From NCBI GenBank assembly GCA_004296455.1, contig AP018280.1:3534001-3598000 (forward strand): DNA of 64,000 bases, read 5' to 3'. The translations under genes and the position numbers were made by a program. Below the pieces are notes generated by a model. The model worked only from the letters and a program-made list of their open reading frames with translations. It did not search any database and was not told where the DNA came from. This document shows, piece by piece, positions 7,596-34,784 of this stretch. How positions within the stretch are numbered: the stretch's first letter is position 1; each line of letters opens with the position of its first letter. The DNA comes from Calothrix sp. NIES-4101 (GTDB lineage: Bacteria > Cyanobacteriota > Cyanobacteriia > Cyanobacteriales > Nostocaceae).

Positions 7596-8477
7596 GTGTT
7601 TCCATCTTCCTTATTTGAAGGCAATTTTTTCCAAATCTCCGATCAAGAACCCCAACGTGCCCCCATTGGAGTTTTTGACAGTGGTGTGGGGGGTTTAACG
7701 GTACTACGCGAACTCTATCGCCAACTTCCCCAGGAGTCAATTATCTACTGTGGGGATACGGCACGATTGCCTTATGGCATTCGCTCGCAAGCTGAAATTA
7801 TCCAGTTTAATCGTGAAATTCTCACCTGGATGCAAAGTCAAGGTGTGAAAATGGCAGTGATGGCATGTAATACTAGCTCTGCGCTGGCACTAGAAATTAT
7901 TCGCGAAGAATTTAATTTTCCCGTTATTGGGGTCATTCTCTCAGGTGCAAGGGCTGCCATAGAAAAAGGTAAGCGTATTGGTGTTATCGCTACTCCTGCC
8001 ACTGCCAAAAGTAATGCATACAAAAACGCTATCCTGGAAATTGACCCCGACATGCAAGTTTGGCAAGTTAGCTGTCCAGAGTTTGTCCCTTTAATTGAAC
8101 AAAATCGTATTCACGACCCCTATACAATAGAAGTCGCCCGTTCTTACCTAGAGCCTCTTATTGATCGCGAAATAGACACCTTAGTCTATGGTTGTACTCA
8201 TTATCCTCACTTGTCTCCCATATTGCGATCGCTCCTTCCCAATAATGTCAATTTAATAGATCCAGCAGTGCATGTTGCCACTGCTTGCGCTCAAGAACTA
8301 GAATTACTCAGTCTAAGAAACAACCATCTACCAATGCCAACTCGCTTTGTTGTCACTGGTTGTCCACAGCAATTTTCCCAATCATCTATCAATTGGCTCG
8401 GCTGCACTCCCACCGTTGAAGTAATCCATTTTAGTGAGATTGCTGTATCTAGCACTCGGCATGATGCTATCAATTAA
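7596..8477 (+). CDS. murI: Glutamate racemase
   Basis: Converts L-glutamate to D-glutamate for the peptidoglycan stem peptide, in the cytosol. The 293-residue protein has the family signature IGVFDSGVGGLTVLREL near the N-terminus, the first catalytic cysteine in MACNTSSA and the second in VYGCTHYP. The start is GTG, and about 24 residues precede the conserved core, so the true start could lie a little downstream. The neighbours upstream are two peptidoglycan amidases, which makes this a small cell-wall block. A pair of hairpins lies after the stop. Confidence 0.95.
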   Translation: MFPSSLFEGNFFQISDQEPQRAPIGVFDSGVGGLTVLRELYRQLPQESIIYCGDTARLPYGIRSQAEIIQFNREILTWMQSQGVKMAVMACNTSSALALEIIREEFNFPVIGVILSGARAAIEKGKRIGVIATPATAKSNAYKNAILEIDPDMQVWQVSCPEFVPLIEQNRIHDPYTIEVARSYLEPLIDREIDTLVYGCTHYPHLSPILRSLLPNNVNLIDPAVHVATACAQELELLSLRNNHLPMPTRFVVTGCPQQFSQSSINWLGCTPTVEVIHFSEIAVSSTRHDAIN

Positions 8478-8515
8478 TGGGAGGGTTACATAGATGAATG
8501 GGCAAGCTTAAGTGC

Positions 8516-8578
8516 GCGGTTAAAATCACCGCTAGAGAAAGTGTAGTGCAGCCCATCTAGGAGAACACTATACTTTCT
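8516..8578 (+). other. Paired hairpins downstream of murI
   Basis: GCGGT/ACCGC (8516-8532) is followed by a 13-bp stem pairing 8536-8548 with 8566-8578 (AGAAAGTGTAGTG with CACTATACTTTCT, one G.U pair in RNA) around a 17-base loop. There is no T-run, so this could be a 3' structure of the murI message or a Rho-type end, but it is not a classic intrinsic terminator. Confidence 0.4.
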
Positions 8579-8618
8579 GACAGCTATAAAATTTAACATA
8601 AACCTACCTGATTACGAC

Positions 8619-8786
8619 TTATTGACCATTAACTGCTTCTGTAACATTAGATGTCACCGAAACATTTGTATCTTTGGTCTCAGTTTTTTGACTATTACGT
8701 TTAGCTAATGCTAATAATAGATAGATTGAAAATAAGTATCCGGTAGCTAATAAAACAATCATAATAGGCATTTCCACGTAAAACAT
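8619..8786 (-). CDS. Small single-span membrane protein, 55 aa, unknown function
   Basis: Short minus-strand frame between the convergent murI stop and a long gap. The 55-residue product begins MFYVEMPIMIVLLATGYLFS, continues into a hydrophobic helix of about 22 residues, and then has a positively charged AKRNSQK stop-transfer segment and a Thr/Val/Asn-rich polar tail ending VNGQ. The layout is that of a bitopic small membrane protein such as those found in photosynthetic or NDH complexes, but I do not recognise the family. A second possible start is the methionine at residue 6. No strong ribosome binding site is seen. A structured segment lies about 210-380 bases upstream on the same strand. 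Confidence 0.5.
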   Translation of the reverse strand: MFYVEMPIMIVLLATGYLFSIYLLLALAKRNSQKTETKDTNVSVTSNVTEAVNGQ

Positions 8787-10197
8787 GTTTTTACCATCTG
8801 CTTTGTCTACGCAATTGCAGCTTATCCTTCTTCATGCAATTCCAGCCCTCAATATTAATTATTGACAGCAAACAATGCCCATTACTACGAAGCACTGGAA
8901 TGGAAGAACCTTGAAGTTAAGAATAAGTTAACTTCGTTTGTGATTATTTTTTTCTACAGATTTACTGCCATCAAGCATTCAAACCGCCAACATAGCTATT
9001 TACGGCTGAGAAGGCAGTTCTCACAAATCTGCATATTCTGAGTATTTTTCCCTACTACACAATAGGATATATAGCCTTTAATTATACTCAAAGGCTAAGG
9101 TTGAAACCTGCTGGGATAGCCGTAAAATGCAAATAACTTGCCTACAAAAGTTGTATCCAAGTTAATGAATCTCAGTAGCTACTTAGCTTTATCGATTCAA
9201 CCATGTTGATTTCTATTTATGTACAAATCAAGACGGCTATAAACCCTAAGAGAGCGATAAACCTTCCTGAAGTGAATAACAAAAATTTTGAAGTCCCTTG
9301 ACATTAGCGTAACATAACCGCCTCACCTTTTCGAGTGGTTAGCTGTTAATTTTGAAAAATTCTCTTTAATGCCAGTAGAAAATCAAATACATCGATTTTC
9401 TGGCATCACAATAATCACTAAGTGTGGTTAGTGCGATCGCTACTAGGAGCTAAAATTAAACTTTAGTTTTCCTCACGTAATTGATTTTCTAAAGCGATTT
9501 TTGTCTCTACATAGCTGGAGAAGCAATCAAAATTTCCATCAAATTACAGACTCAAAATATACTGCTATTTCTTCAATATCAATGTATAAATCTAAACTTG
9601 ATTATACTATAAAAATCAAAAAATATATGGCTTGCGATACCAGTTTCAGGTCAAGATAATGAAGTTAGAAAGCTTGACGGAAAAAGTGTAGAAAACATTT
9701 GAGCGGATCATTTAGAACTGACTCACCCAAAAAAACTTATCTCGCCATGGACAAACTAGTATTCATTGAATTTGTTTTTTGGGTATAGAGCTTTGGTGTT
9801 GGTGCAGGCTAGCTCTTCTGGCAGGCTAGCAATCACAAAGCTTTATTTGTCGTCATCAGCATCCAAATCGCCTGGAAGTTGGCAAGTATTCGAGATTTTC
9901 AACACATCATACCATCAACTCAAGTTTTCCTTTTGCTTTCTATTTCTAAATACAACCGAAAAATACACAATCCGAAAATTCTGTTGTCCAGACTGTAAAT
10001 AGTTGTTAAGCAAGCACTGGCAGCTAAATCTGGTGGATGGTGGTTAGGAATTGTAAATTCCCAAAACTTCTCAACCTATTTCCCTTTCAACCTTTTACAG
10101 CTTTTTCTTGATCAACGCTTTGCAGCAGCACTGCGTTATCTTAAAATGAGTAGAGAATATGTAAACTTTCGTAACTTAAGTCAGAGTCCGCCCATCC
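8787..10197. other. Long AT-rich gap between the 55-aa gene and sds
   Basis: Except for the structured block at 8999-9164, I see no gene in 1.4 kb. An open frame of 78 codons at 9766-10002 starts with TTG, lacks a ribosome binding site and has no recognisable composition, so it is not called. The promoters of sds (plus) and probably of the 55-aa gene (minus) must lie here. Confidence 0.4.
8999..9164. ncRNA. Candidate structured RNA or long 5' leader (unclassified)
   Basis: Closing stem TTTACGGCT (8999-9007) pairs perfectly with AGCCGTAAA (9118-9126). It encloses three hairpins: GAGAA/TTCTC (9008-9022), TAGCCTTT/AAAGGCTA (9072-9097) and AGGT/ACCT with TGAA loop (9098-9109). Immediately after comes a long stem, TAACTTG + TACAA with TTGTA + CAAGTTA (9134-9164), interrupted by one 2x2 internal loop. 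On the minus strand it would sit in the leader of the 55-aa gene; on the plus strand it would be a free RNA. It does not match tmRNA, RNase P, SRP RNA or riboswitch motifs that I recognise. Confidence 0.35.
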
Positions 10198-11169
10198 ATG
10201 ACCCCAGCTACCTCCTTTTTTACCCCTGTGGAAGCAGACCTGCAAATACTAGCAGAGAACCTGATACAGCTTGTTGGAAATGACCACCCCATCCTCTTTG
10301 CGGCGGCAAAACACCTATTTGGAGCTGGGGGAAAGCGTATCAGACCAGCGATTGTTTTGCTAATATCGCGGGCAACCATGTTGCAAAAAGATATTACTCA
10401 GCGCCACCGTCGCCTTGCGGAAATCACGGAGATGATCCACACTGCGAGTTTAGTGCATGACGATGTAGTTGATGAATCAGATGTGAGACGTGGTGTTCCC
10501 ACTATTCATAGTTTGTTTGGCAATCGGATTGCTGTATTAGCAGGAGATTTTTTCTTTGCCCAATCATCTTGGCACTTGGCAAACCTGGATAATTTAGAAG
10601 TTGTGAAGTTGCTATCACAGGTTTTGATGGATTTTTCGGTTGGAGAAATCCAACAGGGACTAAATAGATTTGATACTAGTATATCCTTAGAAACCTATCT
10701 GAAAAAAAGTTATTACAAAACTGCATCTTTAATTGCCAATAGTTCCAAAGCTGCGGGAGTAATCAGCGAAGTTTCATCGGAAATTGCCGAACATCTGTAC
10801 GAATATGGCAATCATTTGGGTTTAGCATTTCAAATTGTTGACGATATTTTGGATTTTACGAGTTCGACAGATACATTAGGCAAGCCAGCAGGTTCCGACC
10901 TCAAAAGTGGTAATCTGACAGCACCAGTTTTGTTTGCATTGGAAGAGCAACCAGCTTTAGAAGTAACCATCGAAAGACAATTTGCTCAAGATGGCGATTT
11001 GGAGAAAGCAATGGCTTTAATTCTTGATACCCAAGGGATTCAGAGGGCAAGAGAGCTAGCAGCATACCATGCTAAGTCAGCAGTTGAACACATTTTAGAA
11101 CTTCCACCCTCGGAACCAAGACAAGCTTTAGCAAATATGGCGGACTTTGTATTAAGTCGGCTTTACTGA
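10198..11169 (+). CDS. sds: Solanesyl/polyprenyl diphosphate synthase
   Basis: Trans-type long-chain prenyl diphosphate synthase that condenses isopentenyl diphosphate units onto an allylic primer, in cyanobacteria supplying the C45 side chain of plastoquinone-9. The 323-residue protein has both aspartate-rich motifs: DDVVD at residues 88-92 (in LVHDDVVDESDVRRG) and DDILD at 215-219 (in FQIVDDILDF), plus the GGKRIRP substrate-binding segment near residue 45. Length is typical. The chain length made is inferred from the family and from the amiC-murI-sds neighbourhood known in Nostoc-type genomes, not read from the sequence. Confidence 0.9.
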   Translation: MTPATSFFTPVEADLQILAENLIQLVGNDHPILFAAAKHLFGAGGKRIRPAIVLLISRATMLQKDITQRHRRLAEITEMIHTASLVHDDVVDESDVRRGVPTIHSLFGNRIAVLAGDFFFAQSSWHLANLDNLEVVKLLSQVLMDFSVGEIQQGLNRFDTSISLETYLKKSYYKTASLIANSSKAAGVISEVSSEIAEHLYEYGNHLGLAFQIVDDILDFTSSTDTLGKPAGSDLKSGNLTAPVLFALEEQPALEVTIERQFAQDGDLEKAMALILDTQGIQRARELAAYHAKSAVEHILELPPSEPRQALANMADFVLSRLY

Positions 11170-34445: not shown

Positions 34446-34784
34446 GCGGGATAGAGCAGCCTGGTAGCTCGTCGGGCTCAAGTGGATAAAATAACTAAAC
34501 GCTTAAAAGTTATTTTTTCTGTGGGCGGTACGTAAAGAAACTTGCGTACGTTTATCTGTCAAACTCGGGGAAGCCACTAGCGCGGTAATCCCGAACCAAG
34601 CCGAGAATTTTGATTCATCAAGGTTTAAGGAAGGTGTAGAGACTGGAAGGCAGATACCCTAACGTAAAGTCGAGGGTAAAGGGACAGTCCAGACCACAAA
34701 CTAGTTGAATCAACTGGGCAGTGAAAACTGTAGATGGTAAGCATAACCCGAAGGTCAGTGGTTCAAATCCACTTCCCGCCACCA
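34446..34784 (+). tRNA. Initiator tRNA-fMet(CAT), interrupted by a group I intron
   Basis: Exon 1 is 34446-34479 and exon 2 is 34742-34784, 77 bases when joined, with CCA encoded. Initiator features: the first pair is unpaired (C1 against C72), the anticodon stem has three G-C pairs (GGG/CCC) around CTCATAA, and the acceptor stem is GCGGGA with TCCCGC. The intron falls between T33 and the anticodon CAT, which gives the U at the 5' splice site and G at the intron end that group I splicing demands. Introns in cyanobacterial initiator tRNA genes are known. Confidence 0.9.
34480..34741 (+). ncRNA. Group I self-splicing intron, 262 nt, no ORF
   Basis: Recognised by position in the anticodon loop and by core elements. 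CTCGG (34564-34568) pairs with CCGAG (34601-34605) around GGGAAGCC and AACCAAGCC strings typical of cyanobacterial tRNA introns. GACTG (34641-34645) pairs with CAGTC (34685-34689) as a P7-like element beside GACAGTCCAGACC. The intron ends in GGTAAG with the terminal G. No homing endonuclease frame fits in it. The detailed P1 guide pairing was not resolved. Confidence 0.88.

Follow-up and report, generated by a model that had tools for sequence, protein, structure and literature searches.

Structured cis-regulatory leaders, whether riboswitches or protein-binding elements, consist of a long covarying fold located directly upstream of a gene and on the strand of that gene. Most riboswitch classes serve several genes. 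In the 64-kb window of Calothrix sp. NIES-4101 (the whole 64,000-nt stretch of DNA analysed), the gap between murI and sds contains an element with the same arrangement, but it is tied to a single gene, matches no Rfam family, and its ligand or binding protein is hypothetical. The mRNAs of small cyanobacterial proteins, such as atpT (AtpTheta/Norf1), provide a precedent. As in atpT, the product of the gene concerned is a small protein of cyanobacteria, and its expression is probably regulated; this likeness is one of description, not of leader homology.

The small RNAs of heterocystous cyanobacteria (NsiR3, NsiR8, NsiR9 and Yfr1; PMC4734099) are likewise conserved and non-coding, and they come from the same clade. 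The screen in that study kept only candidates for which a terminator was predicted no more than 350 nt from the start site, and a 500-nt leader would therefore escape it; the main text of the paper does not mention asl0095, the likely Anabaena counterpart of the gene discussed here. The openly readable full-text literature, which does not take in the primary Anabaena start-site map, held no description of the leader. The best reading is an undescribed cis-regulatory leader RNA; its kind is known, and only the family would be new. It would give a bacterial phylum that is among the best studied a further RNA family, one that is supported by covariation and missing from Rfam. This family is tied to a small membrane protein that is common to cyanobacterial orders and unannotated in the databases searched.

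Locus and features of the candidate leader

The locus contains two amidase-like genes, murI (7596-8477, plus strand), a 55-aa ORF (8619-8786, minus strand), the gap, and sds (from 10198, plus strand). The names murI and sds are taken from an earlier sequence-only reading of the window and from our own reading of the sequence, and the two genes before murI look like N-acetylmuramoyl-alanine amidases. In Anabaena, amiC1 and amiC2 are alr0092 and alr0093 (PMC6974561). Together with the gene order, this would make murI alr0094, the 55-aa ORF asl0095 and sds alr0096, and we infer that the ORF corresponds to asl0095 of Anabaena PCC 7120. A predicted FurC box was given for asl0095 (PMC10406281), and it recurs with 2-3 mismatches 38 nt before the ORF in four loci (L102, L111, L117 and L118). 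Homologues of the 55-aa gene adjoin sds in other cyanobacterial orders, and Pfam, PDB and NCBIfam gave no credible match for the protein.

We think that the region probably forms the central part of a long, folded 5' leader that belongs to the mRNA of the small membrane protein and runs along the minus strand, starting at about 9295 and reaching the start codon at 8786. The features are:

8619..8786, minus strand: gene for a 55-aa single-helix membrane protein (coordinates include the stop codon); homologues in other cyanobacterial orders too
8787..9295, minus strand: predicted 5' leader of the small gene, about 510 nt, with an inferred 5' end; constant length in 88 Nostocales loci
8952..9036, minus strand: domain IV, a covarying hairpin domain, in which 9032-9025 pairs with 8962-8956 (P1)
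8999..9126, no strand: closing stem of the sequence-only reading (8999-9007 with 9118-9126); this strain only, unconserved
9072..9097, minus strand: inner hairpin UAGCCUUU/AAAGGCUA; retained in both sister genomes
9216..9278, minus strand: domain I, a hairpin near the 5' end; weaker support, from covariation of a 4-pair core
9294..9317, minus strand: promoter-like or 5'-end block TTATGTTACGCTAATGTCAAGGGA; conserved, recurs before the gene in other orders

The sequence-only reading had placed a strongly structured, unclassified RNA at 8999-9164, closed by a perfect 9-bp stem and followed by a 12-bp stem. Its central claim is borne out, as the segment folds better than shuffled sequences on both strands and relatives show covariation. 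The 166-base segment has a z-score of -2.72 against dinucleotide shuffles on the plus strand (2 of 200 shuffles were equally good) and a stronger one of -3.34 on the minus strand (1 of 200). The details fared less well. RNAfold pairs TTTACGGCT (8999-9007) with AGCCGTAAA (9118-9126) in a 10-pair closing helix, so the closing stem is present in this strain, but in the two sister genomes (L003 and L009) the arm 9118-9126 reads AGAGCAATT and AAAGTAATT on the minus strand, which makes pairing impossible. Since the stem is lost in both, it is not a conserved fold. Pairing does exist at 9134-9164, in the form of 7 and 5 pairs flanking a 2x2 internal loop and not as 12 continuous base pairs. The inner hairpin AGCCTTT/AAAGGCT is also present in the segment; the hairpin at 9072-9097 is uninformative on covariation because it is nearly invariant. 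The boundaries 8999-9164 did not hold: comparison of relatives points to another fold as the conserved one, which lies on the minus strand and extends well beyond them. An Rfam scan of the region found no match at the gathering score, 6S RNA and the described riboswitches included, and only chance-level matches with nothing credible at a relaxed threshold, which agrees with the label unclassified.

Covariation and strand of the RNA

Covariation analysis had been proposed as a check, and compensatory changes were indeed found in an alignment of 76 sequences (A2) covering 9036-8952. Run separately on four subgroups, RNAalifold gave each time a domain with a closing stem of the GCAGACU/GGUCUGC type. 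Across the 76 relatives, 14 of the 18 pairs in domain IV are changed on both sides. Double changes occupy 55 cells, where shuffles that ignore phylogeny give 20.1, and 90.1% of cells are paired against at most 43.5% for slid versions of the structure. P1 is paired in 97% of cells and changes on both sides in 4 of its 7 pairs, and P2/P3 are paired in about 77-90%. Because of these shuffles, and because the structure was drawn partly from the same alignment, loci held out of the model weigh more (see below). The window's own lineage retains P1 but has a rearranged inner part of domain IV, and the window's copy has a low score of 29 bits against the covariance model R1. Domain IV differs in length among relatives in steps of one and two bases, which argues against a coding role. 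A competing helix in domain IV (columns 19-23 with 33-37) can form in most sequences, but only 1 of its 5 pairs shows a double change, and a switch of domain IV between two folds would lack the support of covariation.

The RNA might also belong to the plus strand and form, for instance, an extended region upstream of sds. The plus strand also beats shuffles, both in this strain and over 21 leaders, where the mean MFE is -116 kcal/mol and the mean z -3.4. The minus strand of the same 21 leaders folds more strongly, however (mean MFE -144 kcal/mol, mean z -4.1), and read on this strand the pairs include 177 G-U against 24 A-C. The A-C combinations would be the wobbles if the plus strand were the RNA, and the minus strand is therefore indicated by about 7 to 1. 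Furthermore, about 830 nt of mostly poorly conserved sequence separates the element from the block upstream of sds, which is itself separately conserved. A plus-strand RNA thus seems very unlikely.

The folding might also have arisen by chance in intergenic DNA rich in A and T, or reflect selection on the DNA and not on an RNA; this has to be weighed, since a single-sequence z-score near -3 is no proof and the closing stem first noticed is unconserved. The covariation, the G-U strand bias and the recovery of held-out loci make this explanation extremely improbable. At the level of sequence comparison, the data show an RNA fold under selection with the minus strand as the RNA, and an element tied to one gene.

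Outside domain IV the picture is thinner. RNAalifold on the whole set returned no structure for domains I and V because the alignments are too divergent, and later support for these domains is limited to small helix cores; the 4-pair core of domain I is paired in 87% of the main subgroup and in 74% of the others. In other orders, three leaders have sense-strand z-scores of -5.8, -5.8 and -6.3 (L125, L130 and L135). Leaders there may keep a structure of their own, and many show none.

Distribution and the 5' promoter-like block

The model R1 was run on 292 genomes of the phylum. It matched in 28 genomes of the family besides the window's own, a total of 29 of the 32 family genomes sampled, each time about 150-190 nt before the small gene and with one significant copy per genome. 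The window's own match (E 0.001) concerns a sequence that was built into the model. Loci outside the training set were recovered as well: L051 with E 3.8e-23, L061 with 3e-9, and L080-L082 with about 6e-4 to 8e-4. In the other families among the 292 genomes the element is absent by R1; three weak matches outside the family (E 0.007-0.04) and one weak second match are probably due to chance. As significant R1 matches occur only before the small gene, the element is not a multi-gene riboswitch. In three genomes of the same family (G013, G020 and G062) the small gene is present but R1 finds no element. Some Nostocaceae, L132 and L133 (and also L030, L049 and L116) have the small gene without domain IV, and in these five loci the conserved 5' block is missing at the usual distance. 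Nostocaceae without domain IV offer a natural comparison for the role of the leader.

The block near the presumed 5' end has the consensus TTGTGTTACGCTAAAATCTAGGGATTTTAAA on the coding (minus) strand, with a -10-like TAAAAT followed by a purine-rich presumed start; in this strain the -10-like element is TAATGT at 9306-9301, where most relatives have TAAAAT. The block lacks a canonical -35 hexamer. In 88 Nostocales loci about 460-600 nt separate it from the start codon downstream. Measured from the ORF start to the conserved block near 9318, the distance is 532 here and mostly about 495-560 in some 60 murI loci, with extremes of 462 and 604. We scanned 20 loci with the pattern T[AG]TGTTA.{7,13}A[AT][GT]G[GA].TT; they come from other families, orders and classes, except that two are from Nostocaceae without the element. 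It gave 9 matches in 393 kb with both strands counted, and all 9 are on the strand of the small gene, 346-558 nt upstream of it, a count that overstates the significance because the pattern was written after some of those sequences had been seen. That it matches nowhere else in the 393 kb is telling. The block presumably holds the promoter and start site of the leader.

The sequence-only reading had left open a small RNA or a long leader of the 55-aa gene. The constant position, the strand signal and the promoter-like block favour the leader. Alternatively, an independent trans-acting RNA could start at the 5' block and be released by processing or early termination, with the small gene as a neighbour or a partial read-through product. 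The strong fold, the presence of its own promoter-like block and a conserved unpaired stretch GUAGACUGCUGA in domain IV would suit such an RNA. Yet a simple consensus scan of 8470-10200 found no terminator-like site on the minus strand, the element never occurs away from the small gene in the sampled genomes, and its distance to the start codon is nearly constant. We therefore consider an independent small RNA unlikely.

Transcription, proposed action and neighbouring sequences

According to the leader reading, minus-strand transcription would start near 9295 and run to the start codon at 8786. The leader would be co-transcribed with the small gene and act in cis, adjusting the expression of the small membrane protein in response to a signal. 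The folded domains may set translation initiation, which we prefer, or else transcription read-through into the small gene. Among the features that could carry such a mechanism none is firmly conserved. The Shine-Dalgarno sequence is occluded above the shuffled mean in 51 of 81 leaders, weakly above chance, and four loci (L021, L028, L034 and L040) have no obvious Shine-Dalgarno sequence. Long-range pairing between the conserved 5' end and the sequence before the start codon is striking in L135 and L058, but was rejected as a general feature, since the mean z is -0.16 over 81 leaders. An upstream ORF in the +1 frame that overlaps the start codon and in many loci has LVEQ as its last residues was also rejected: neither its start nor its length is conserved.

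Directional RNA-seq of Anabaena detected antisense reads from alr0091 to alr0094 (PMC3141674). That paper does not mention asl0095 in connection with these reads. They correspond to minus-strand transcription immediately downstream of the small gene and would fit read-through from it, which makes the leader a candidate source of this unexplained signal. As Anabaena PCC 7120 is tractable, these claims are directly testable. A bolder scheme, to which we give little credence, is a cyanobacteria-wide leader responding to a signal from the membrane or from quinones; attenuation would then set the level of both the small protein and the antisense transcript over murI and the amidases, and so link prenyl-quinone synthesis to cell-wall remodelling.

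Several other sequences in the window were observed. The genes murI and the small gene converge, and a long inverted repeat, AGAAAGTGTAGTG...CACTATACTTTCT, occupies 8536-8581 in the interval that separates their stop codons. It is possibly the shared 3' end of both transcripts, although on the minus strand it has no T-run after it. The roughly 90 bases before the sds start (10109-10197, plus strand) have about 90% or higher identity per position in most of 78 Nostocales loci and are non-coding in all three forward frames read; such strong conservation suggests that they serve sds as promoter or leader. A plain DNA search beyond the genus gave short matches to a 30-base piece only. This piece (8815-8844), which lies inside the leader, has 90% matches at single places in other genera, away from this locus (twice in G001, and in G002 and G075), and is perhaps a small dispersed repeat. 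Lastly, ARAGORN run without introns reported no tRNA in the 64-kb window, and 34449-34783 (plus strand) contains a group I intron (Rfam RF00028, 34495-34707) that appears to interrupt a tRNA gene with the flanks CGCGGGATAGAGCAGCCTGGTAGCTCGTCGGGCTC and AACCCGAAGGTCAGTGGTTC...CCACCA; this gene resembles initiator tRNA-fMet.
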